From NCBI GenBank assembly GCA_905221435.1, contig CAJNDD010000008.1, positions 13,960-77,959 of the forward strand: a stretch of DNA of 64,000 bases, in the 5' to 3' direction. Numbering within the stretch: the first letter of the stretch is position 1; every line of letters begins with the position of its first letter. The position numbers and the translations under genes were made by a program. The notes beneath the pieces were generated by a model. It did no database searches and had not been told where the DNA came from. It saw only the letters and a program-made list of their open reading frames with translations. Of this stretch, positions 26,783-43,975 are shown in pieces. This DNA is from a bacterium. Lineage in GTDB: Bacteria > Bacillota > Bacilli > Lactobacillales > Streptococcaceae.

Positions 26783-28078
26783 TTAGTCCAAGCCCACGCG
26801 CTTGAAGATTTCATCCACGCGCTTGGTGTAATAAGTTGGATTGAAGATTTCATCAATTTCCTCTTGAGTCAGGCGTGATGTCACTTCTGGATCTGCTTCG
26901 AGAAGCGGTTTGAAGTCTACTTGGTTATCCCAGGAGTAGGCTGTTTTTGGTTGCACCAAGTCATAGGCTTGCTCACGGGTCATACCTTTCTCGATCAAGG
27001 TCAACATGGCACGCTGGCTAAAAATCAAACCAAAAGTAGAATTCATGTTGCGGATCATATTTTCTGGGAAGACCGTCAAATTCTTGACAATATTTCCAAA
27101 ACGGTTGAGCATGTAGTCAATCAAAATGGTCGTATCTGGTGTGATGATACGCTCAGCTGATGAGTGGGAAATGTCACGTTCGTGCCAGAGAGCGACGTTT
27201 TCATAGGCTGTCACCATGTGACCACGGATGACACGCGCCAAACCTGTCATGTTCTCAGAACCGATAGGGTTGCGTTTGTGAGGCATTGCTGAAGAGCCTT
27301 TTTGCCCTTTGGCAAAGAACTCTTCTACTTCGCGTTGCTCAGACTTTTGCAAACCACGAATCTCAGTCGCCATACGCTCGATTGAAGTTGCGATGCTGGC
27401 AAGAACTGCAAAGTACTCAGCGTGAAGGTCACGAGGAAGGACCTGTGTAGAGATTTCTTGGGCACGGATACCTAATTTGTCGCAGACGTATTTCTCTACA
27501 AATGGTGGGATGTTGGCAAAGTTTCCAACCGCACCAGAAATCTTACCAGCTTCTACACCAGTAGCCGCATGCTCGAAACGCTCGATATTGCGCTTCATTT
27601 CGCTGTACCAAGTTGCCAATTTCAGACCAAAAGTTGTAGGCTCAGCGTGCACACCATGAGTACGACCCATCATGATGGTGAACTTGTGCTCCTTAGCCTT
27701 ATCAGCGATGATGTTAGTGAAGTTTTCAAGGTCACGACGGATGATGTCGTTGGCCTGCTTGTAGAGGTAACCGTAGGCAGTATCCACCACGTCGGTAGAA
27801 GTCAAACCATAGTGGACCCACTTGCGCTCTTCACCAAGAGTTTCAGAAACCGCACGTGTGAAGGCAACCACATCGTGGCGCGTCTCCTGCTCAATCTCCA
27901 AAATTCGGTCGATGTCGAAGCCCGCCTTCTCGCGAATCAAAGCCACATCTTCCTTAGGGATTTCCCCCAACTCAGCCCATGCCTCGTCCGCCAAGATTTC
28001 CACCTCAAGCCAAGCACGGTATTTATTTTCTTCACTCCAAATGTTCGCCATTTCTGAGCGAGAGTAACGGTTGATCAT
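26783..28078 (-). CDS. purB: Adenylosuccinate lyase
   Basis: 431-aa fumarase/aspartase-superfamily enzyme acting twice in purine synthesis: SAICAR to AICAR and adenylosuccinate to AMP. The signature [13 protein letters not shown] is intact, as are the [14 protein letters not shown] and [10 protein letters not shown] segments. The AAGGAG before the ATG lies inside the end of the upstream nuclease-like gene, whose frame runs 47 bp into purB. It is last gene of the pur locus, separated from purK by accessory DNA. Confidence 0.97.
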
Positions 28079-29594
28079 GTTGTTTCTCCTTTTGATATTT
28101 AAATATAGTGTTGTTTAAAACAAGTTCATTTTTACTTTCTTCGAAAGGTAGTGACCAATTTTCAAATCGTCCCATTATGTTAACTTCAATATTGTAACCA
28201 TTAGGTGGGATAAAGTTATAGTTAGGACTGATATAATATCCATACTGTGCTATCTCACTAGCTTGAATAGAACGTATAGTTTCAATTCCAGATGTCCTAT
28301 AAGATATATAATCAAATATCTTCTCTATTCCACTATGCCAGATTATCTTTTGGAAATCAAAATAATTTACAATCCATGTGTCAATCAAATCATTTCTATT
28401 CCTATCTTTAAAATAATCTATTGCCATTTCAGATAATTTATAGTAATCATCTAATGTTACGACTACCTTATATATTTTTTTAGATTTTATATTTTCAATT
28501 CTAAGTCGCTCAGTACTTCCCTTTTTATCAGTGAATATTGCAATTTCATTATTAAGGATATATTGTTTAGCTCTCTCAGCTTGTTCAGAAGCTGCCAATA
28601 CCACTTTTTTAAACAGCTGCTGGCTACGCTCCTCTGACATTTTTTGATTAAACGGAATCTCTTTAAAATCCCTAGCCTTGCATTCTATTAATAGGATATT
28701 GTTACCTGAAATAACAATGAAATCTTGTTCTTCTTTTTTACTAGTTTTTAAATATAAAGATTGATAAACATTATCAACATCAAAATAATTTTCCAAAATA
28801 GTTTTTAATTCCTTCTCTAATATGTCTCCTTTATTGTTTGAAGAAGAAATTAGTTTTTGTTCAATACTAGATAGAATATGTTCTGATGCAGGTAAAAAAT
28901 ATGTCAAATTCCTTTTAATCCCAATAGAACCCCCTAATATTTGTATAGAAGAGGTCAAATATCTTACTTCCATATTTTTTGAAGCAGTCATAAATAATTT
29001 ACTATAATCAATATCCCCAAAGATTTCATCCAGCTCTCTATCTGAAAATTGGCTACAACTACACACTAATCCATCTAGGCGAGATTTAACATTACAGATT
29101 ATATATAATAACTTGTCAAAATTTTCGTAAATTGAAAATCTATATTGTTTTCTTGCTTCATTATCAAACATCCTACATATTTCATAATACTCCCAAAGTT
29201 CTTTTCGAAAATCAAAATGGTAGCTTAAATAACTTTGTAAACTATCGCTCCTTCTATCTTGTATTGACTGTTCCACTTGGTTATTAGATATATTATTTTG
29301 AAGGGCATTTATGAATAAAAAGAAAATTTCAATTTCATCTGAAGTAACTACATCCTTCTTTGACTCGCCGTTATACTTCAATAATATATATACATATAAC
29401 TGAACCATAAGTTTCAGTGAAAATTGTGAATTTGATTCTCGCTTTCTTTGAATAATAGCTAAATTCATCACAGTATTTAATTTATTTATTGAATAATAAA
29501 TATTATAGTACTTTAAAATATAATTCAGAATATCATCAATATTACTAAGTTGGTATATCTCTTTCTCTATGTCCTCTAGACTTTTAGGATACAT
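28032..29594 (-). CDS. PD-(D/E)XK nuclease-like protein of unknown function, overlapping purB
   Basis: 520 aa and clearly more A/T-rich than the pur genes. No family is recognised for the N-terminal 240 residues. Residues 256-306 look like a restriction-endonuclease fold: [16 protein letters not shown], then D291 (EEQDFIVI), then the LLIECKA motif with E304 and K306. A helix rich in Gln/Ala ([13 protein letters not shown]) follows. This fits Mrr/NERD-type DNA nucleases and so a possible defence role, but the substrate is unknown. AGGAG lies 8 bp before the ATG. The last 16 codons run through the purB ribosome site and start out of frame, so the natural C-terminus may have been lost on insertion, or it is now coupled to purB. 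Confidence 0.7.
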
Positions 29595-29949
29595 TTTTTA
29601 ACTCCTAATCCTTCTTTTAAAGTTTTCAAATATCTTTACAATGCTTCTATAAAAAATTTTCACTAACTCATAACACTTACTGTATTTCACTTAAAACATC
29701 CACTTCTATAGCTAATAATAAATAATACAATATACTTTTGAAAACGATATTCAATAACAAGTGCAGATTCTCCTATAACAATACAAATACTGATCAATGA
29801 TCCTCTTATACTTAACTATAAAATTCTATTTCTCCAGTACTTACAACTCTCTTTTTGTGCAAGTTTATTGATATTTATTTGAATTGCAACCATACACTAT
29901 TAATAAATACTTACTTCATTGTAGTAAGTTTGTTATTAAAAAGCTAAAG
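29595..29949. other. 355-bp A/T-rich gap between accessory genes
   Basis: No ORF worth calling. The only structure seen is an imperfect inverted repeat at 29903-29942 (ACTTAC...GTAAGT core within a longer TAATAA/TTATTA pairing) that could terminate the minus-strand gene ending at 29950. The rest probably holds the promoter of the nuclease-like gene. Confidence 0.5.
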
Positions 29950-30741
29950 TCATAAAGCAGTCTTCCTCGTCTCTTCAAATCTATGATAATCAGCGTCAAG
30001 CAAAAACCGCCCCAACTCAAAAATAACCCCTGAATAGAAAATTACTTTTTTATTATAATCTAAGCTAATAATTAAATGACCTTCTTTATTTCTATAATCT
30101 TTTCCATCAAAGTAAACATGATCATATAGAACAGAATAATCCCTCACTTCTTTAATAACAGTATTTCCTTTATTAATCATTCTTGCCGCAAACTGCGAAT
30201 GATTAGCTCCATTACAAATCGCAATATCCATTGGATATACATAGTGATTCTCTATATTGTAACTGTAGCGATCCCCATCAAAAGGATTTTGATTATTTAT
30301 TGTATCGAGATTATTTATTATTCTGTTCGAATTCCATGGATTTAACAAAATAGGCAACTCCTTCACCATTATTTCAATCGGCCCTTGCTCTCGAATTGTT
30401 TTGTTTTTATAATACTTCGCATCATCCGGATGTATGCTTCGGCAGATAATTTCATTAATAGTTAAATCTATTTCGTATACAATTTTGTTATAAATTTCTT
30501 CAATCAAAGAATTATCTTGTGCTTCATGATTAGTTTCAACTGCTTGAATAGCCTCATCAAAATTTAGATACTCAACCACAACCATCAACAGATTTTGAGC
30601 TGTTCTCACTCTGTCTTCATTTTTACTACAGTCTTCAACCATATTCATATAGTTTGTAAATTTATTTTTATAACCTTTATAATCAATCACACTTTTTGAT
30701 CCTTGTATACTGCTAAATAATTTTCTTAAGAAATTTAACAT
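29950..30741 (-). CDS. Accessory protein of unknown function (possibly DUF6710 type)
   Basis: 263 aa, soluble, A/T-rich gene. The N-terminal 110 residues are helical and acidic; the middle contains LLNPWNSNRI, NPFDGDRY, then AICNGANHSQFAARMINKGN, a motif reminiscent of GNHS-type segments. From memory this pattern resembles the DUF6710 family, but I cannot confirm it. A strong AGGAGG lies before the ATG. It sits between an SRPBCC gene and the nuclease-like gene, in the accessory block between purK and purB. Confidence 0.65.
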   Translation of the reverse strand: MLNFLRKLFSSIQGSKSVIDYKGYKNKFTNYMNMVEDCSKNEDRVRTAQNLLMVVVEYLNFDEAIQAVETNHEAQDNSLIEEIYNKIVYEIDLTINEIICRSIHPDDAKYYKNKTIREQGPIEIMVKELPILLNPWNSNRIINNLDTINNQNPFDGDRYSYNIENHYVYPMDIAICNGANHSQFAARMINKGNTVIKEVRDYSVLYDHVYFDGKDYRNKEGHLIISLDYNKKVIFYSGVIFELGRFLLDADYHRFEETRKTAL

Positions 30742-30809
30742 TATTTCCTCCTAGATACTATAAATCTCCGTTTACTTCTCATTATCTAGTTTGTAGTGCT
30801 TTTCCCAAA

Positions 30810-31178
30810 TCAAGGAAATACTGTTTTTTTGTTTTTTAAATAGAACCAAGCAAATGATGTCAGTAGGATATTTTTAACAGTAATATCTTCTGTAAAATCC
30901 AGAACCGTTTGTCCATCCTTATAATCAAATCGTCCTAGCCAAGTTCCTTGGAGATTTTTATTTTCAAACTCAAGTTCCCAGCGCTTATGTAAGTCAACCT
31001 TTTTTACCTTAAAATTTGTCTGGATACTATTTTTAGTATATTCAATAAAGTGACTGTCATCTATTTTTTCAAACCGACCAAGATCACTTCTCCAAGTTTG
31101 ATTTGATAAATCAGTCACACATTCCCAAACTTTATCAATAGACCAGGAAAAACTCGCTTTCCTATTAGATTTTACCAC
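30810..31178 (-). CDS. SRPBCC-family (START-like) protein, C-terminus probably frameshifted
   Basis: 122 aa starting at a GTG with AGGA upstream. It has the SRPBCC pattern: SFSWSIDKVWECVTDLSNQTWRS at the N-terminus and VLDFTEDITVKN before a last helix. Relatives end with a longer helix. Here the frame stops soon after YLKNKKTVFP. Adding one A in the A-run at about 30838-30843 would extend it to YLKKQKNSISLIWEKHYKL..., so a one-base deletion in this homopolymer is likely. Ligand and role unknown. Confidence 0.65.
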   Translation of the reverse strand: MVKSNRKASFSWSIDKVWECVTDLSNQTWRSDLGRFEKIDDSHFIEYTKNSIQTNFKVKKVDLHKRWELEFENKNLQGTWLGRFDYKDGQTVLDFTEDITVKNILLTSFAWFYLKNKKTVFP

Positions 31179-34604: not shown

Positions 34605-35867
34605 TTATCGAATAGCCTTACTTCCGATATCGGTTCGGTAAAAGAGACCTTCTGTGTTTTGTTTGTCGAGTTCACTATAAATAATATTTTGTCCGTCTTT
34701 GACGGTGTCTGCTGTGGTGACGAGCATATAGACACGTCCGCCGTTTGAGAGCAGTGCTCTGCTATTTTCCGCAAATTTAGCACCTGCATAGTAAGTGATG
34801 ATATCGCCTTCTGTCTTGGCTGGAAGCTTGACACCTTTCTCATAAGCCAGTGGGTAACCGTCTGATGCTACAACCACACCCAGAGTCACACCCTTATCCG
34901 TCCAAGTGATAGCTGGCTCTTTGCCTTTCAAAATGTCAGTGATATTTTGTGCAAAGTCAGATGTCAAACGAGGCAAGATGATTTGCGTTTCAGGATCTCC
35001 GAACCGAGCGTTAAACTCGATGACTTTCGGTCCGTCAACTGTCAAGATTAGCCCTGCGTAAAGGACACCAAGATACGGGCGACCTTCTTTGATCATACCT
35101 TCAAGAACTGGCTTGACAATAGTGTCAACCGCTGTGTCAACCACGCTCTGTGGCAAGTGAGGAACTGGCGCATAAGCTCCCATACCACCCGTGTTAGGAC
35201 CCTTGTCGCCGTCATAGGCACGTTTATGGTCCTGAGCCGTCGGCATGATGTAGAACTTGTCCCCATTGACAAAGGCAAAGAGAGAGAACTCTTCTCCGTC
35301 AAGGAATTCCTCGATAACCACACGCGCACCTGAGTCACCAAATTTATTGTCCAAAAGCATCTCATGAGCAGCTTCGACTGCTTGCTCAACCGTCTCCGCA
35401 ACGACGACACCCTTCCCAAGTGCCAAACCATCTGCCTTGACAACGATAGGAGCGCCTTTCTCCTTGATATAAGCCTTGGCCTCCTCAAAGTCAGAAAATG
35501 TGCCATAGACTGCTGTCGGAACGCCGTATTTGACCATGATTTCCTTGGCAAAATCCTTGGACCACTCCAGCTCCGCAGCTAATCTTGTCGGACCAAAGGC
35601 TTTGAGACCAGCTTGGTTAAAATCATCTACAATCCCAGCAGCAAGGGCATCATCTGGCCCAATGAAGGTCCAAGCTATATCGTTGCCCTTTGCAAATTCA
35701 ATCAACTTAGAATGTTCGGAAATAGAGATATTTACCAATTCCAGCCCATCCAGAGTCATTCCGTCATTTCCTGGAGCTACAAAGACTTTTTCAATGTCTT
35801 TTGATTCAAGCAACTTCTTAGCAATCGCATGTTCACGACCACCTGAACCAACAACTAACAGCTTCAT
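34605..35867 (-). CDS. purD: Phosphoribosylamine-glycine ligase (GAR synthetase)
   Basis: 420-aa ATP-grasp ligase that joins glycine to phosphoribosylamine. It starts KLLVVGSGGREHAIAKKL and contains PNTGGMGAYAPVP and the FNARFGDPETQ motif, all PurD signatures. AGAGGTTGAGAG precedes the ATG. It has its own promoter because an island and a purH-type terminator now separate it from purH. Confidence 0.97.
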   Translation of the reverse strand: MKLLVVGSGGREHAIAKKLLESKDIEKVFVAPGNDGMTLDGLELVNISISEHSKLIEFAKGNDIAWTFIGPDDALAAGIVDDFNQAGLKAFGPTRLAAELEWSKDFAKEIMVKYGVPTAVYGTFSDFEEAKAYIKEKGAPIVVKADGLALGKGVVVAETVEQAVEAAHEMLLDNKFGDSGARVVIEEFLDGEEFSLFAFVNGDKFYIMPTAQDHKRAYDGDKGPNTGGMGAYAPVPHLPQSVVDTAVDTIVKPVLEGMIKEGRPYLGVLYAGLILTVDGPKVIEFNARFGDPETQIILPRLTSDFAQNITDILKGKEPAITWTDKGVTLGVVVASDGYPLAYEKGVKLPAKTEGDIITYYAGAKFAENSRALLSNGGRVYMLVTTADTVKDGQNIIYSELDKQNTEGLFYRTDIGSKAIR

Positions 35868-35899
35868 CTCTCAACCTCTTTTGCGAATTATTTACTAAC

Positions 35900-35925
35900 A
35901 TTATATCATAAACGTTCGTTTTAAT
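35900..35925 (-). promoter_or_regulatory. purD promoter with possible PurR element
   Basis: Minus strand: TATAAT (35905-35900) with a TGA extension. ACGAAC at about 35920-35915 in the -35 area resembles the CGAAC core of streptococcal PurR boxes; this is weak evidence. Confidence 0.5.
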
Positions 35926-35950
35926 CTTGTTTCACTTAGTGTTTTAAACT

Positions 35951-35986
35951 AAAAAAGGAAAGAAACTGTTTTCTTCCCTTTTGTCT
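35951..35986 (-). terminator. Old purH terminator next to purD
   Basis: Minus strand AAAAGGGAAGAA / TTCTTTCCTTTTTT hairpin directly after the purH remnant stop codon; followed by a T run. It would have ended the original purH. Confidence 0.7.
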
Positions 35987-35988
35987 TC

Positions 35989-36093
35989 TTAATGTCTAAA
36001 ATGTCTCACGCCTGTGAAGACCATAGTCAAGCCATACTTGTCCGCAGCTTCGATGGATTCTTGGTCACGTACTGATCCACCAGGCTGGATAAT
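35989..36093 (-). pseudogene. Duplicate 3' end of purH
   Basis: About 105 bp aligned with the end of purH (41056-41160), same orientation, about 90% identical with nearly all differences silent. The minus strand encodes [13 protein letters not shown]...[10 protein letters not shown] and the stop, the last 34 residues of PurH without change. The similarity stops abruptly at about 36093, where the island begins. Confidence 0.92.
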
Positions 36094-36123
36094 AGTTATT
36101 CTCCGAAACAAGATATTCCTTAA

Positions 36124-37527
36124 CTATAAATGTTGGTAACCTTTTTTGTAAATGACTGTCGCCAGCTTATTCTTTATTGTACTAAGCATATCGGGATTAA
36201 TAGAAAACAGAACTTCCTTTTCACCAATTGTAGTATCAGTAATAGGAATTGAAGTAATTTGTGAAAAATCTAAAATCAAATAGACTGAACTATTTTGATA
36301 ATTTTTATGCTTAAACTCTAGTGCATTAAATATAGTATCATTAAGCTTAAATACTACGTTCCCATCTTCATTCTTGAATTTGAATTTATCCTCGTAAAAC
36401 TCATCGGATAAAATTTTTTCAATTAAGTTTTTAGAGATAACGCATCCACGAATGAACTTATAATAACGTCTTTTATTTTGCGCTATATCACATTCTGGGC
36501 TGATTTCTAAGATAATTTCTTTATAGAAAGTTTCAGAATCAGTATATTTGTCAATAGCTCTTTTAAAGTGTTCCTCATCTTCAATTTTATCCACTAGATT
36601 ATATGCTAAAAATGTATTATCATCAACAATTACTTTACCCATGTGTTGTTCATTTGCTAAGTAATTTATATTTAACCATCGATTTAACTCTTGAATCTCA
36701 AATCCATCTGGAAGACTATCCCCTAAATGGTTTAAACCTGCTGAAGTCAACTCGATTTCTCTCTCCATCCCATGGTTCAAATAAATTTTTAAAAATTTAT
36801 TTAAACATTTATATGATGCATTTATTTTTCCAATATTATTCTGGCTTCCCATCGATTTTTCTAATTCTAAATAAGCTAACAACTCTACAATTTTCTTGGT
36901 CGGCGCTTCTCGTCTTATATTTCCAATTTTTAATAGACCTGCAATGTCTGAAATTAGCTTCTGTTCTTTATATAGAATCATGTTCTCCCAATGAGAGAAA
37001 TACTCTAGCATGGGAACTTCTCTAGTTACTTGTTCAAGTTTTCTTTCAAGTTCCTGATCTTTCCCTTCAATAAATTTATAAGAATCTTCCCCTTCTTTTG
37101 TTTCAAAAAAATCTATTTTATCTAAACTTTGAACTTCCCATGGAAATAAATGTTTTTTATCCTCTTTTAATTTACCGTTGCTATCAGATAAACGTTCTTT
37201 TAAATCTTCTTTAAATTGACTCACATCACTCTCTGTCTGGCTCCAAAGAAAAATAAAATAAGGCCCATTATTTTTAGGAATTATACTACTAAGATATCTA
37301 ATAATAGTATCAATCGGGCGCCCTGTCGCACCAGGAATCAAATTATAATCTAAAAAAACTAGTCTGGTAGCTTCTTTTTCAATTCCTTCCAAAGGTAAAT
37401 TTTCAGGGTCAGCATCATAGTAGCGAAAAGACTTATTATTTTTTGATAAAAGTTTAATTAAAGGCTTTGCTTCCATATATTTATCATCTAAGATCACAAT
37501 AGATCCATTATTAGGTAAATTATTCAT
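36124..37527 (-). CDS. Receiver-domain-like protein, third gene of the methyltransferase island
   Basis: 467 aa. The N-terminal 110 residues look like a response-regulator receiver: IVILDD with D14-D15, LVFLDYNL with D60 as the phospho-acceptor position, and FLWS with S96. The remaining 350 residues are not recognised; a conserved-looking block reads ISPECDIAQNKRRYYKFIRG at about residues 340-360. No DNA-binding motif is evident. It follows the GHKL protein gene by 8 bp with GAGGG as ribosome site. By position it is the likely partner of that kinase-like protein. A/T-rich, clearly transferred. Confidence 0.72.
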   Translation of the reverse strand: MNNLPNNGSIVILDDKYMEAKPLIKLLSKNNKSFRYYDADPENLPLEGIEKEATRLVFLDYNLIPGATGRPIDTIIRYLSSIIPKNNGPYFIFLWSQTESDVSQFKEDLKERLSDSNGKLKEDKKHLFPWEVQSLDKIDFFETKEGEDSYKFIEGKDQELERKLEQVTREVPMLEYFSHWENMILYKEQKLISDIAGLLKIGNIRREAPTKKIVELLAYLELEKSMGSQNNIGKINASYKCLNKFLKIYLNHGMEREIELTSAGLNHLGDSLPDGFEIQELNRWLNINYLANEQHMGKVIVDDNTFLAYNLVDKIEDEEHFKRAIDKYTDSETFYKEIILEISPECDIAQNKRRYYKFIRGCVISKNLIEKILSDEFYEDKFKFKNEDGNVVFKLNDTIFNALEFKHKNYQNSSVYLILDFSQITSIPITDTTIGEKEVLFSINPDMLSTIKNKLATVIYKKGYQHL

Positions 37528-37535
37528 ATTCTATC

Positions 37536-39626
37536 TTATCCCTCCGACAATGGTAAACTTAGTATTATAGCCGCACCTGATTGGTATTCTTTCGGTAAAT
37601 CCAAATCTTTATTTTCTGGAAAAAGTAATTGTCCTTTTTGTGAATTCATAATTTCGTTAACAATATTTAGCCCTAGACCCAGTCCACCTTGTTTTTCTCC
37701 GACAAAAGGACGGATCATATCCTCTGGATTTCCTTGAAATCCCATCCCGTTATCTGCTATTATCAGCTCAACACGATCCCTATCAGTTAGAACCGTATCA
37801 ATTAAGATTTTTTTTTGCTTTTTCCCTGATTTATGTGTCCAATATATTGAGTTATCAATGATATTCATAATAGCAGACACAATTAAACCTTTGTCACACA
37901 AAACCTTATAATTCTTATCTTTATAAAAACTATCAATCGAAACTTCATGGGCTTCTAGCCTAAACTCAACATTAAATAAAGCATTATTAATAATCTCTAT
38001 AACAGAGTAGTTAGATTTTCTTCTATTTCGTAATATCGAGGTATATCCTTCAATTACATCCCGTAGTCTATGCGTTAACTGATCAATTCTTTGAATCTCT
38101 GTAGAATTCCATGAAATAACAGAAAGTTCCTTTACAATTTTTTCCATCTCATGGATAACAATTGCATAACTGCTTGTAGCTGATGAAGTCTTTACGTAAG
38201 TTTCTTTAATAAATTTATACTCTGACTTCACTCGATTTAATTTATGAAAAATCTGTCTCTTAATTTTTGTTTCAACATCTAAAGAGTCAATATCATTTGC
38301 TACTTCATCAATAATGTCAACTAAATCTTTATTATCTTCTTTTAAGGATTGGCGTAATCTATCCTTATCAATATTTCTTTCTCTAGTAAATTCAAATAAA
38401 TATTTCTCGATTATATTTACAAACGTTTCATAGCTCTGGTTGTAAATGAAACCTTCTCGATTTGCTTTTTCGACCAATCCCCTACTCTCATTACGTTTTA
38501 GAGATATAGCTCCTAAAATTATATTGTTACTCAATGAACTAGCTGGATTATTTACACGTTTTGAATCAAGATTGAGCCAATCATTTCCCTTTTCACCATA
38601 ATCTAAAACACGCATATTATCACGGAAAATTCGTATTCCCCCATTTTCAGTCAGGTAGTCTTTAAAAGATTTCTTATCTTCCATAATAAAGCGAGTAACA
38701 TCAGATGATTTATCAAAAACATATAATTCTATAGAAAAATCATTTATCCCATACTGTTCCATACAATTTTTAGATTTGTCTTGAAAAAATTTAGCTGGGT
38801 CTTTACGTTTGCTATCACTGAAAAAATCAAGTGGAATTATATCTTTTTCTATCCTACGAGATTTAACTGACATATTGTCATAGGGTAAAAATTCATACTT
38901 AAAATCTTCAATATTGCCATCTTTAAACTTCGCTGTCGAACGGTATAAAGCAAATTGTTTAATCTGTCCGAAATCTAACATCCCTTCTAGCCAATCATCA
39001 TGTGTACTTTTTATATTAACTTTAAACGATTCTTGGGACTCAAACGGAGAATTCAAAGAAACGATTTGTCTATATGTTTCACGAAATTTACGTTTATTCC
39101 ACTGCTCTATATTTCTAATCTGAATCCTTGTTCCAGTGCTATTTATAAACTTCTGAGGCTCCCGTTCCTTAATAGTAATTGGTATTTCATCTAAAAACTG
39201 ATTTGAATCAAACTTACTCCAATCAATTTTAAAATATACTTCAAGATTTCCCTTCGATCTAGTAATAATTTCAATTTCTTTACCTAGTTTATGAATTCCG
39301 AATCGGCCAATTCCTTTTTCTCCAATCGGTAAACGCCCTAACTTAGTCTTCTTTTCTTCATCAACTTGTTTCTTTTTATGAGTATTTCCTGGTTGCATCC
39401 AGACATCTCTAATCGTTTCAAAAGACATTCCTACTCCGTTATCTTCTACAACGATTTCCCCAAGCATTTCTGAGTCTAAATAGGATAAATTTACCTCACA
39501 TTCTGTAGCATCAGCATCGTATGAGTTTTTTATTAACTCTAATAATGCGATACCCTCATTTTTAATTAACTGATCTCCCAATTGAATTAAAATTTGAGCT
39601 TTCGGTCTAAATTTAATTTCTGTCAT
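37536..39626 (-). CDS. GHKL ATPase fused to a histidine-kinase-like module
   Basis: 696-aa soluble protein with two ATPase domains. N-terminal Hsp90/MORC/MutL-like domain: ELIKNSYDADA (N34), EDNGVGM (D62) and GEKGIGRFG (102-110). C-terminal histidine-kinase-type ATPase: NIIDNSIYW (N592), IADNGMGF (D625) and GGLGLGLNIV. Between them a helical stretch carries VIHEMEKIV with H492 where a kinase H-box would be. GHKL ATPases of the MORC/MutL kind are known in restriction-modification operons, but the fusion with a kinase-like module next to a receiver-like protein suggests phosphorelay. It starts 3 bp after the methyltransferase stop. Confidence 0.8.
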   Translation of the reverse strand: MTEIKFRPKAQILIQLGDQLIKNEGIALLELIKNSYDADATECEVNLSYLDSEMLGEIVVEDNGVGMSFETIRDVWMQPGNTHKKKQVDEEKKTKLGRLPIGEKGIGRFGIHKLGKEIEIITRSKGNLEVYFKIDWSKFDSNQFLDEIPITIKEREPQKFINSTGTRIQIRNIEQWNKRKFRETYRQIVSLNSPFESQESFKVNIKSTHDDWLEGMLDFGQIKQFALYRSTAKFKDGNIEDFKYEFLPYDNMSVKSRRIEKDIIPLDFFSDSKRKDPAKFFQDKSKNCMEQYGINDFSIELYVFDKSSDVTRFIMEDKKSFKDYLTENGGIRIFRDNMRVLDYGEKGNDWLNLDSKRVNNPASSLSNNIILGAISLKRNESRGLVEKANREGFIYNQSYETFVNIIEKYLFEFTRERNIDKDRLRQSLKEDNKDLVDIIDEVANDIDSLDVETKIKRQIFHKLNRVKSEYKFIKETYVKTSSATSSYAIVIHEMEKIVKELSVISWNSTEIQRIDQLTHRLRDVIEGYTSILRNRRKSNYSVIEIINNALFNVEFRLEAHEVSIDSFYKDKNYKVLCDKGLIVSAIMNIIDNSIYWTHKSGKKQKKILIDTVLTDRDRVELIIADNGMGFQGNPEDMIRPFVGEKQGGLGLGLNIVNEIMNSQKGQLLFPENKDLDLPKEYQSGAAIILSLPLSEG

Positions 39627-39629
39627 CTC

Positions 39630-40883
39630 TTAGTCCTCGTCAATAAAATATTCCTCTAATTTTTTTGCAATATAATAAGCCATTAGAGGAGGTACGGCAT
39701 TACCAATTTGGGTAAACGCTGCTGTTCTTGAACCTTCAAAAAAGTAATCATCAGGGAAAGATTGGATTCTAGCAGCTTCTCTAACACTTATGGAACGGCA
39801 TTGCTTAATATCAGGATGTATAAAATAATGCCCATCCTTTGCAATATGTGCAATCATAGTGTGAGAGGATGGTAAATTTGAAGCTAACACCTTAAACCTA
39901 TCTAAAAATGATTTTTGATTTTTGTGCGTCACAAGATTAGCAGGTAATGAATCATACCTCAATCTTACTCTACTTTTATCCCACAAATCAATAGCTCTAG
40001 CATAAATTTCTCTATCTCTGTTATTCGTATATCTTGAAACATGCCATGTCAATGGAGCGTCACTATCTCTTATAAAACTCTTAACTAAATAATCATGCGT
40101 TCTAGACACATACGTATTATCTTCAGTATCAATATCTAATTTAGCTAAATCATTCAAAATACATTTTACACTTGCATTCGGAAAATTTATTTTTTTAAAA
40201 ACAGGGTAAGAAAAATTAAACTCTTCTTTCCATCCGATTAAAATTACTCTTTTACGTTTCTGTAAAACACCAAAATCTTCCGCATTTAAAACCTGGTGTT
40301 CTACTTTATATCCTGATTTCGAAAAAGATTCTATAATATCATCTAAAATTTTACCATTTCCAGCAGTTAAAATTCCTGGAACGTTTTCAAAAATAAACAT
40401 TTTGGGAGAGTAATGAGTAATAAATTTTACATACAGTTTATATAAGTAGTTCCTAGGATCATCTTTCATACCTGTAACACTTACAGATCGTCCCATTACA
40501 GAGTATGCTTGACATGGCGGTCCTCCAATTACTAAATCTACTTTTTTGGTTTCTGTATATCTAACATATTTATCTACCTGCTTAAAAACTTCATATATAC
40601 TATTATCATTAAGTTCTGTATTGATAACACTTTCTAAAATTTCCTTAGGGACCTTTCCCCATAACTCTTCCCTAGATATTTCTCTACGAAGGTATTGATA
40701 ATAGAAATCAATCTTCCTATTTTCTTTTAAATAGTAATATGACAATCTGGTTTTTAATGTATTGCAAGCATGTAAATTCATTTCCACGTGAGCTAATGGT
40801 TTATAATTCCCTGTTCGTTTGAATCCTTCCGACAACCCCCCCGCTCCAGCGAATAAATCTATATACTGTATTTTAGCTTTCAT
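39630..40883 (-). CDS. DNA (cytosine-5) methyltransferase
   Basis: 417-aa C5-methyltransferase. Motif I IDLFAGAGGLSEGF, motif IV GGPPCQAYS with the catalytic cysteine, motif VI FENVPGIL, motif VIII QKRKRVILIG and motif X GNAVPPLMAYYIAKKL are all intact, so it should be active. The target sequence cannot be read. It is the first gene of a three-gene operon with its own promoter. No recognisable restriction endonuclease is encoded beside it; the other two genes may restrict or regulate. Confidence 0.93.
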   Translation of the reverse strand: MKAKIQYIDLFAGAGGLSEGFKRTGNYKPLAHVEMNLHACNTLKTRLSYYYLKENRKIDFYYQYLRREISREELWGKVPKEILESVINTELNDNSIYEVFKQVDKYVRYTETKKVDLVIGGPPCQAYSVMGRSVSVTGMKDDPRNYLYKLYVKFITHYSPKMFIFENVPGILTAGNGKILDDIIESFSKSGYKVEHQVLNAEDFGVLQKRKRVILIGWKEEFNFSYPVFKKINFPNASVKCILNDLAKLDIDTEDNTYVSRTHDYLVKSFIRDSDAPLTWHVSRYTNNRDREIYARAIDLWDKSRVRLRYDSLPANLVTHKNQKSFLDRFKVLASNLPSSHTMIAHIAKDGHYFIHPDIKQCRSISVREAARIQSFPDDYFFEGSRTAAFTQIGNAVPPLMAYYIAKKLEEYFIDED

Positions 40884-40917
40884 TTAAATTCGTACTCTTT
40901 TTATCTTTTTACTTTTT

Positions 40918-40926
40918 ATTATACCA
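40918..40926 (-). promoter_or_regulatory. Promoter of the methyltransferase island
   Basis: Minus strand extended -10 TGGTATAAT ending at 40918, about 35 bp before the methyltransferase start. No clear -35. It makes the island independent of pur transcription. Confidence 0.55.
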
Positions 40927-41020
40927 TTTTTATGAAAACGTTAATTCATTTATAGTCAAAACTTAATAAAATAATGATTTTTTAATTATTAATAAATCTC
41001 CAATTGTTGACTTCATTATT

Positions 41021-41052
41021 AAAGGCACCCATCCATCAATGTGCGCCTTATC
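41021..41052 (-). terminator. purH terminator
   Basis: AAGGCGCACA / TGGGTGCCTT hairpin on the minus strand just after the purH stop, followed by a T-containing tract. It differs from the terminator left beside the purH remnant. Confidence 0.65.
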
Positions 41053-41055
41053 TTC

Positions 41056-42603
41056 TTAATGTCTAAAATGTCTCACTCCTGTGAAGACCATAGTCAAGCC
41101 GTATTTATCCGCTGCTTCGATGGATTCTTGATCACGGACTGAGCCTCCTGGCTGGATGATGGCCTTGATACCTGCTTTGGCGATTTCTTCCACGTTATCG
41201 GCAAATGGGAAGAAGGCATCTGAAGCAAGAACTGCGCCGTCAAGACGGTCTTTGGCTTGGTCAATGGCAATACGGACTGAAGCCACACGGTTGGTTTGAC
41301 CTGGGCCAACACCAAGTGTCATGTGGTCGTTGGTGATGATGATACCGTTTGATTTGACGTACTTGATAGCCTTCCAAGCAAACTCAAGGGCAGTAGCCTC
41401 TGTCTCTGTTGGCTGGCGTTTGGTCACCACTTGCCAGTCAGCCGGGCTTTCCTTGACCACATCTTGGTTTTGCACCAGAAGTCCACCTACTACACCTGTG
41501 TACTCAGCCTCTACTTCACTAGCTTCTTGAGCATCAAATGGCAAGGAAAGGATACGCAAGTTTTTCTTTTTGTTGGTCAAAATGGCCAGCGCTTCATCCG
41601 TATAGCTTGGTGCAATGATGATTTCAAGGAAAACGCCGTGCATCTTCTCAGCTGTCGCAGCATCCACCTCACGGTTAAGAACGACAATCCCACCGAAGAT
41701 AGACACTGGGTCAGACTCATAAGCGTAGTCCCAAGCAGTTTCGATGTCATCTGCCTGACCAAATCCACATGGGTTCATGTGTTTGAGAGCCACGACGGTT
41801 GGACGTTCTTTGAAGTCACGGATGATACGGATAGCAGCATCCGCGTCACGGATGTTATTGAATGACAATTCCTTACCGTTAAGCTGTTTGGCTGATGCAA
41901 TCGAATAGTCCGTTGGCAAAGCTTTTTGGTAGAAATCGGCATCTTGTTGAGGATTTTCCCCATAGCGCATAGCTTGTTTGAGGTCATAGGTCAAGGTCAA
42001 CTTTTCAGGTTTGCTTTCGCCCACTTGAGCTGTAAAATACTCTGCAATCAAGGCATCATAAGCTGCAGTGTGACGGAAAACCTTGGCTGCTAAACGTTGA
42101 CGCGTTTCATAAGTCGTTTTGCCGTTGGCTGACAATTCATCAAGAACCACCGCATAATCCGCAGGATCCACCACAACTGTTACACTAGCGTGGTTTTTAG
42201 CTGCTGAACGAAGCATTGATGGACCACCGATATCAATGTTTTCGACTGCATCAGCGTAAGTCACGTCTGGTTTGAGGATGGTTTCCTTGAATGGGTAAAG
42301 GTTTACCACAACAAGGTCGATAAGCTCAATCTGATTGTCCTTAGCCGCTTCCAAGTGACTATCCAAGTCACGACGAGCGAGGAGCCCACCGTGAATATTT
42401 GGGTGAAGGGTCTTGACACGACCGTCCATCATTTCTGGGAAGCCAGTCACATCATCGATGGCAATAGTCTCTACCCCAACATTATCAAGGGCAACCTTGG
42501 TACCACCTGTCGAGATGATATCCCATCCAAGTTTTTTAAGTTCTTGGGCAAATTCAACAATGCCCGCTTTGTCTGAGACGCTGATTAAGGCGCGTTTAGT
42601 CAT
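41056..42603 (-). CDS. purH: Bifunctional AICAR formyltransferase/IMP cyclohydrolase
   Basis: 515 aa, the last two steps to IMP. The N-terminal IMP cyclohydrolase (MGS-like) domain covers about residues 1-190 with STGGT and [14 protein letters not shown]; the formyltransferase domain follows with [15 protein letters not shown] precedes the ATG. The 3' end has a diverged second copy at 35989, on the far side of the island, so the gene kept a full reading frame when the island arrived. Confidence 0.97.
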
Positions 42604-42620
42604 ATCTTTTCTCCTATTTA

Positions 42621-43415
42621 CTAATTTAAATCATTATTAACTTTACTTCTCTTCGATTCATATTTTGATAGCACGATTTGCTTAACTTTCCCGACATAGT
42701 TTTTTAATTTATTCGTTGATTGTTTGAACTCTCCACCATCTAAAGAAAATTGAGCCATATAACAATTATCAAAAATATCTGTATAATATATATTAAATCT
42801 GTTGTTTTCGAATTCACTATCTGAGAATGTAACAGTTAAATATCCACATTGATCTCTACGAACGATTACCTTAGTGTGAATAGGAATTAATTCTTGTGTT
42901 TCTTCATTATTAATTTTATAGCTGTTTATAATAGCATGATTTAGACCGATATTCTTTAATTCTAAGTACAATACCTTATTAATCGAATTTTGTTCTATGT
43001 AATTATTTTGATCTGTAACAACTACACTATCTGTTATCCCTATCTTATCAATTAAATCTCTATTTTCTTGATTACTACTGTTAAAAACATCTATCATTTC
43101 ATTAAATGTTAGGGAACGAACTATTAGTATTGGTTTATTATTCAGCCTTCTTTCTTCAGACATCAAATTTTGATTGTTCTTTTCTGACTCTTCTCTCTTT
43201 AATCTATCATTTGCTAGTGTATTTTCAAAGACCTTAATCGTCACATATACCCCTATAATAGCTCCAAAATATCCCAACCAATCATAACGATCTGATATAT
43301 TATTCAAGAGAGGAATTCTTGTTGATATGTTCGTCAAGTCGACTATCAATAATATTGTTGTAACAACAAAGACAATCTGAAATACATGATTACTTATATA
43401 TTCTCTTATTCTCAC
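42621..43415 (-). CDS. Membrane protein of unknown function coupled to purN
   Basis: 264 aa from a GTG start that overlaps the purN stop (GTGA). Two N-terminal helices (about residues 10-27 and 45-62), then a charged coiled-coil-like stretch ([20 protein letters not shown]) and a soluble domain of about 160 residues with no known motif. It is A/T-rich, unlike its neighbours. In S. pneumoniae this slot between purN and purH is held by a vanZ-like gene, so it is a variable site. The role is unknown; a purine function is not implied. Confidence 0.7.
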
Positions 43416-43975
43416 TTTGAATCAACCTTCCTCCCTACTCCCAAGCTATCCAGCACCTCTGGATACAACTTGTACTCCGCCTCATGAATCCGAGCTTCAA
43501 AGCTTTCGATGGTATCATCAGCTAATCGTGGCACACGCACTTGTTTGATGACCTTTCCTGTATCCACACCCGAATCCACCCAGTGAATGGTCACGCCGCT
43601 CTCACTAACACCAGCATTCCAAGCATCCTCAATCCCATGAGCTCCTGGAAATTCGGGCAGGTAGGCTGGATGGATATTGATAATACGCCCCTCGTAGGCT
43701 CCAAGTAAGGTTGGTCCAACGATTTTCATGTAGCCAGCGAGGCAAACCAAGTCAATCTGGTGTTCTTCCAAGAGTTCGACAAGAGCTGCTTCGTAGTCCG
43801 CCTTGTTCTCAAACTCCTTGAGTTCAAAAGCATAGGACAGGACGCCGAGCTTGTCTGCACGTTCCAGCACATAGGCGTCACGATGGTCTGAAAAGACAAA
43901 CTCCACCGGAAATTCTTCGGCAATCATCTGAAAATTTGAGCCGTTACCAGAGGCAAAAACCGCTATTTTTTTCAT
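43412..43975 (-). CDS. purN: Phosphoribosylglycinamide formyltransferase
   Basis: 187-aa folate-dependent GAR transformylase. [12 protein letters not shown] at the N-terminus and [13 protein letters not shown] with the HP pair and [13 protein letters not shown] identify it. It overlaps purM by four bases (ATGA), indicating coupling. Confidence 0.97.

Follow-up and report, generated by a model that had tools for sequence, protein, structure and literature searches.

The stretch of DNA analysed here, the window, comprises 64,000 nucleotides of a Streptococcaceae contig (CAJNDD010000008.1, positions 13,960 to 77,959), and the genes of interest lie within a Streptococcus purine operon on its minus strand, the pur names being read from open reading frames (ORFs); for purD, Pfam backs the assignment in a relative. 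Between purH and purD is an A/T-rich insert holding three non-overlapping ORFs of at least 90 aa, tightly packed in the order C5-cytosine DNA methyltransferase (MTase), a 696-aa protein bearing a pair of GHKL ATPase domains, which we refer to as the kinase, and a 467-aa protein, which we refer to as the receiver (Table 1). An extended -10 box lies 35 nt upstream of the MTase start, and it is likely that the three genes form an operon driven by this promoter of their own. A first-pass annotation, made from the letters alone, had described just such a compact A/T-rich set with its own promoter, and this description is confirmed.

Table 1. Features of the insert and the flanking purine genes, with positions in the window
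Feature	Position	Strand	Basis or remark
purD	34605-35867	-	ORF reading
Direct repeat, downstream copy	35981..36093	-	purH 3'-end remnant, contiguous with the native purH-purD spacer
Receiver-effector protein, 467 aa	36124..37527	-	82 homologues at E <= 0.001; AlphaFold mean pLDDT 84
C-terminal domain, residues 285-467, candidate effector, motif ISPECDIAQNK	36127..36675	-	
Residue 65 (junction 64/65), where the second receiver class starts to differ	37333..37335	-	29 second-class receivers
REC domain, about residues 1-140 (D14, D15, D60, S96, K137)	37108..37527	-	
Histidine kinase-like protein, 696 aa	37536..39626	-	Pfam HATPase_c_3 3.2e-21, HATPase_c 1.2e-15
C-terminal kinase-type HATPase_c, residues 581-694	37545..37886	-	Pfam
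Codon of His492 (VIHEMEKIV), candidate phospho-acceptor	38151..38153	-	Conservation
N-terminal Hsp90/MORC-type GHKL domain, residues 27-155	39162..39548	-	Pfam
C5-cytosine DNA methyltransferase, 417 aa	39630..40883	-	Pfam PF00145 6.7e-64; PADLOC DrmMII 5e-167
Extended -10 element TGGTATAAT	40918..40926	-	Read directly from the letters; not among the separately listed elements
Direct repeat, upstream copy	41048..41160	-	3' end of intact purH plus 8 nt
purH	41056-42603	-	ORF reading

Insertion with a target duplication

The insert is bounded by direct repeats of 113 bp that correspond to the last portion of purH including its stop codon, are 89% identical and lie 5,067 bp apart. A query made of the downstream repeat, the spacer and the start of purD found matches in 21 of 31 relatives, partial or split in 15 of them and unbroken in the other six (G001-G005 and G008, 68-92% identity); in these six the site is therefore empty, with purH followed directly by purD. 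The operon has thus been inserted with a 113-bp target duplication, and insertion with a long, variable target duplication has been described for restriction-modification (R-M) units in an earlier study (PMC3031569). No integrase- or transposase-like ORF of at least 90 aa is present in the insert, and no Rfam family reaches its gathering score in 35800-41300.

The kinase occurs in two of 284 Streptococcus species genomes (E 1e-60) and the receiver in one of 147 relatives. In the carrier G073 the module adjoins purD on the purH side, closing a purH-purD interval of about 20 kb and lying 39 bp after an Abi_2 gene, and since the window insert occupies the same gap, that gap has been used at least twice; two of the collected loci (L001 and L003, the latter being the S. 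tangpeifui / strain ZJ373 record) represent this one G073 locus. Relatives of the kinase are encoded, by protein comparison, on two short unannotated phage records and on 12 viral contigs, 11 of them distant, and a search with window positions 41000-43500, which cover purH and its neighbour but not the island, gave no DNA match to phage records. We conclude that the operon is real, mobile and conserved, and probably functional.

Two side observations belong here. The long G073 interval (L142, L143) contains, besides the Abi_2 gene, ORFs of metabolic appearance, with the module at its purD end. Among 33 plasmid records that match the kinase distantly (about 25% identity), 25 come from Campylobacter and 30 are typed as conjugative.

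Conserved features of the three proteins

The reading of the three genes given by the first-pass annotation, as a complete C5-methyltransferase, a protein uniting an Hsp90/MORC-type with a kinase-type ATPase and an H-box, and a protein with receiver-like residues, holds throughout. In the MTase the PPCQ, ENV and QxR motifs are intact, and their letters do not vary among the 53 MTases aligned, which were picked at E below 1e-80 and include the one in the window; the best PADLOC model is DrmMII. HATPase_c_3 and HATPase_c are both present in all 63 scanned kinases, again including that of the window. E30, N34, D37, D62, G64, G66, G105 and G107 of the N-terminal GHKL domain are invariant in 82/82 kinases, as are N588, N592, D625, G627, G629, G650 and G652 of the C-terminal ATPase (G648 in 81/82), and the H-box histidine is likewise found in 82/82, followed by Glu in 76 and Gln in six. 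A profile of the kinase matches solved histidine kinases over the C-terminal part only, and residues 1-418 have no sequence relatives in the PDB at E 0.1. Two homologues, P0113 and P0168 (851 and 840 aa), carry an additional N-terminal stretch of about 150 residues.

The receiver matches no family in Pfam, NCBIfam or PADLOC, and as a whole it has no solved sequence relatives below E 0.1. Its N-terminus adopts a response-regulator fold in the predicted structure, with D60 and K137 conserved in 78/78 homologues, Ser/Thr96 in 77/78, D14 in 75/78 and D15 in 68/78; His492 and Asp60, whose variation among homologues the first-pass annotation had named as evidence against its proposal, are therefore both without exception. 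The family spans many bacterial phyla and two records labelled archaeal. A record labelled as a Cenarchaeum metagenome-assembled genome (L056 / L065) has at least three tandem kinase genes, separated by genes of receiver type, and shows no MTase-like gene nearby; it could be a tandem amplification or a mis-binned contig.

The C-terminal domain of the receiver has a less straightforward identity. Its model weakly suggests an SH3-like barrel of the MazF/CcdB type, whereas no sequence similarity was detected: hhalign gave a probability of 0.3% against an alignment of only six MazF sequences (the ORFs passing the filter from 20 fetched loci), the window domain matches nothing in Pfam at E 0.5, PemK_toxin is absent among the 25 families listed of 43 for 66 C-terminal domains, and two matches to solved structures by sequence at E 0.5 look like chance. 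The catalytic residues of MazF are Arg and Thr, and the window domain has its own CD..Q.K motif. A hidden nuclease in residues 110-467, which the first-pass annotation had proposed to look for, is not indicated, as no Pfam, NCBIfam or PADLOC family matches and neither PD-(D/E)XK nor HNH occurs among the matches listed for the C-terminal domain, families outside that list staying possible. Ten short proteins also carry the domain; P0204-P0211 resemble, by eye, cut receivers, and P0212 (163 aa, on a 363-kb contig) is in its final part 91% identical to the window C-terminus over 69% of the query and is perhaps a decayed copy. At L079 (10196-10939) a receiver-type ORF of 247 aa ends before the C-terminal domain, and the ORF immediately after it, of 318 aa, has weak metallo-beta-lactamase-type PADLOC matches, possibly an output exchanged for a separate protein.

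Receivers fall into two classes. The second consists of 51 database proteins (P0004-P0055 minus P0053), 40-43% identical to that of the window overall and including, by source name, proteins of S. sanguinis and S. cristatus. All 29 of those in the alignment are 81-91% identical to the window receiver over residues 1-64, just past Asp60, and 34-37% over residues 65-467. ISPECDxAQxKR is kept in 29/29, and the halves are not wholly unrelated, as islands of conservation persist beyond residue 64 (for example 75% at 337-352). Member sequences number 70 in the window-like class and 202 in the second, and among the best 120 of 3217 kinase matches a single cluster at 93% identity has 304 members, the others above 55% having at most 22 each; it is implied, by exclusion only, that near-identical kinases would partner two very different effector halves.

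The same parts vary across the wider set. In 1378 pairs of 53 loci the middle and C-terminal parts of the receiver are the least conserved in every bin of kinase identity. In the pair L050/L078, for example, identities are 80% for the kinases, 59% for the MTases, 75% for REC, 40% for the middle part and 36.5% for the C-terminal part, and in L017/L076 they are 76%, 77%, 34%, 21% and 29% in the same order. A receiver that diverges while its MTase stays would be unlike a restriction enzyme bound to match the site of its MTase. Kinase and MTase identities are only loosely coupled; this is weak evidence against a kinase reading the target of its own MTase, leaving general DNA state, the MTase protein and phage activity as candidate signals.

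Relation to a published architecture and to known systems

The gene order seen here was published by Bellieny-Rabelo et al. in 2021, with domains named HEF_HK (PF19191) and Response_reg_2 (PF19192) and a speculation on R-M control that joins two-component system, paraMORC and R-M, the function being left open (PMC8011034). The window operon has in common with these systems the adjacent MTase, double-GHKL kinase and receiver, the key residues (H-box His and acidic residue; REC Asp pair, Asp, Ser/Thr and Lys) and, in its branch, the frequent Vsr and HNH neighbours; for Response_reg_2 receivers the authors mention no other known domain (PMC8011034). PF19191 matches none of 63 kinases and PF19192 none of 75 receivers, and each is absent from 24 carrier and from 14 control genomes. 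As a positive control, covering PF19192 alone, this model matches three of 321 genomes from the class of one carrier. The zero model matches rule out filing the window genes under either family.

The three PF19192 loci have the same order of MTase, kinase and receiver, with kinases of 991-1003 aa and receivers of 555-617 aa, and profiles of the window branch find their kinases (E 1e-49 to 1e-54) and not their receivers (E 1.4 or worse); the two are therefore branches of one architecture. Because comparison of receiver and C-terminal profiles with the three PF19192 receivers gave a low probability (1.8-16.5%, mainly at the C-terminal end), shared motifs were counted instead. The motif pair, [STNQ][PSRQA]xCD at 90-220 residues from the end together with [RK]xG in the last 35, is a pattern chosen after viewing these sequences and occurs in 67/75 window-branch receivers, 3/3 PF19192 receivers and 1/265 background ORFs (non-receiver ORFs of 350-700 aa at the same loci). 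The window operon is a second branch of a published, uncharacterised architecture, in which the C-terminal domain and the two-class receiver are newly noted. Its description as a possible new module by the first-pass annotation is thus not supported. HATPase and REC also appear in a figure legend of DefensePredictor (2026, PMC13092281) that names domains of defence systems predicted but not yet validated; the two may or may not belong to one system there, or to that of the window.

Several established systems share single features with the operon. Type II R-M shares the C5 MTase, whereas no cognate restriction endonuclease was found in the insert: Pfam, NCBIfam and PADLOC reveal no nuclease domain in the three ORFs, in agreement with the first-pass remark that a kinase-receiver pair stands with an MTase and no visible nuclease, and the BbrUII/HgiDII and REase_II matches cover only the GHKL part of the kinase. 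The MTase matches DrmMII of DISARM, whereas the PADLOC matches listed for the kinase and receiver genes include no Drm model, and the window is without any Mza gene. Detocs is a two-component phage defence that works by phosphorelay, as is proposed for the window operon; it is not known to include an MTase, and its effector is a different one.

MORC and paraMORC proteins combine a GHKL ATPase with an S5 domain, of which the GHKL part is present, by Pfam, in the window kinase. In the text of Iyer et al. (2008, PMC2292703) such N-terminal ATPases neighbour MTase, Vsr and other nuclease genes, but the word 'receiver' does not occur. The Shedu protein VcSduA, with a GHKL N-terminus and formerly known as paraMORC3, is phage-protective and its ATPase is proposed to gate the effector, which is however a nuclease in the same chain, and the available passages show no kinase/receiver pair or MTase (PMC12137116). 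PorX, with its PglZ domain, is an existing example of a response regulator whose output is a nucleotide-processing enzyme (PMC12839542). A literature search, reaching few subscription papers, listed no title or abstract that reports a test of the kinase-receiver pair or of the C-terminal domain.

A proposed immune module and its alternatives

Our preferred reading, to which we give roughly even credence, is of a mobile three-gene immune (or addiction) module composed of an MTase, a kinase sensor and a receiver with its effector. In the scheme that we infer for phosphotransfer, signal, effector action and an anti-phage role, the C5 MTase would mark host DNA and the kinase, through its MORC/Hsp90-type ATPase, would sense an intruder or disturbed DNA, probably as an ATP-gated clamp on DNA or a DNA-protein complex. 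It would then autophosphorylate at His492 and hand the phosphate to Asp60 of the receiver, which may free or assemble the C-terminal barrel as effector. This domain, MazF/CcdB-like in its model and bearing a conserved Cys-Asp...Lys site of its own, would act as a toxin in abortive infection or post-segregational killing, or alternatively together with a nuclease where a nuclease gene is linked. More tentatively, and with the balance against it, the receiver could be a phospho-gated toxin, REC joined to a MazF/CcdB-like barrel. The 'restriction' arm would then be a kinase-triggered toxin and not a DNA endonuclease, its output half varying by allele class, and likewise in the HEF_HK/Response_reg_2 branch, and the two branches would together form a large class of methylation-linked phosphorelay immunity that has so far gone unrecognised.

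If the proposed module is right, R-M-like protection can be run by a histidine kinase and receiver in place of a cognate nuclease, and a receiver family whose window member matches no Pfam, NCBIfam or PADLOC model would gain a function. It also raises the testable question of which signal is read by the MORC-type-ATPase kinase: DNA, methylation state or the MTase itself.

The gene neighbourhoods of other copies, proposed earlier as a check, bear on the alternatives. A same-strand ORF follows the receiver gene within 120 bp in 41 of 71 assessed loci (in L044 and L053 it encodes an MTase, and a few of these ORFs, under 100 aa, may be spurious), the scanned downstream genes include HNH_2, HNH, EcoO109I-family, AspBHI/Mrr and NOV_C members, and genes for restriction, repair or abortive infection make up many of the neighbours scanned. 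The first-pass interpretation is supported in part: the phosphorelay pair with its MTase, the conserved residues, the lack of a nuclease gene found in the insert and the defence neighbours stand, the novelty is not supported, and the suggested sensing of unmethylated DNA is conjectural. The downstream nuclease families would also suit a rival that we hold possible but rather unlikely, in which kinase and receiver regulate or activate a separate nuclease, unlinked or lost in the window, the C-terminal domain being a binding module; a solo copy could then be a remnant. However, many copies lack a close downstream partner, the catalytic residues are conserved across the whole set, and both branches retain the CD motif.

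A second alternative is a selfish addiction unit, in which a cell that loses the MTase is killed by the kinase-receiver pair, much as type II R-M systems can kill after they are lost, with phage defence secondary. The 113-bp target duplication without an integrase-like ORF, a form described for R-M units (PMC3031569), and the rarity of the kinase among Streptococcus species (2/284) agree with it, but the loose coupling of kinase and MTase (80% against 59% in L050/L078) does not. The window and L002 differ similarly (kinases 72%, MTases 44%), although the L002 MTase lies 3.6 kb off, on the other strand and beyond a transposase gene, and is maybe not the partner. We consider this alternative improbable. 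Least probable is that the pair serves epigenetic signalling, regulating host genes without a role in defence, which draws on the response-regulator fold and on no toxin activity being known, but is opposed by the lack of a DNA-binding output domain among the six Pfam families matched by 75 receivers (E 0.01, one member each), by the many restriction, repair and abortive-infection neighbours and by the sporadic distribution.

Some minor observations remain. In seven loci (L016, L017, L022, L025, L027, L034 and L076) members of one gene cluster lie directly or closely 3' of the receiver; the one member scanned as representative resembles EndoIII (HhH-GPD) and could take the place of Vsr as a partner for G:T repair. 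Elsewhere in the window, a 264-aa ORF with a hydrophobic N-terminus (42621-43415) lies between purN and purH, 17 bp from purH, and has no family match above cut-off in Pfam, NCBIfam or PADLOC. A second A/T-rich stretch (28032-31178; GC 0.27-0.30 over 28001-31000) beside a purB-like gene encodes a 520-aa protein with a NERD nuclease-related match and a DUF6710 protein, contains in addition one small ORF of unknown type, and is possibly another defence-type insert.
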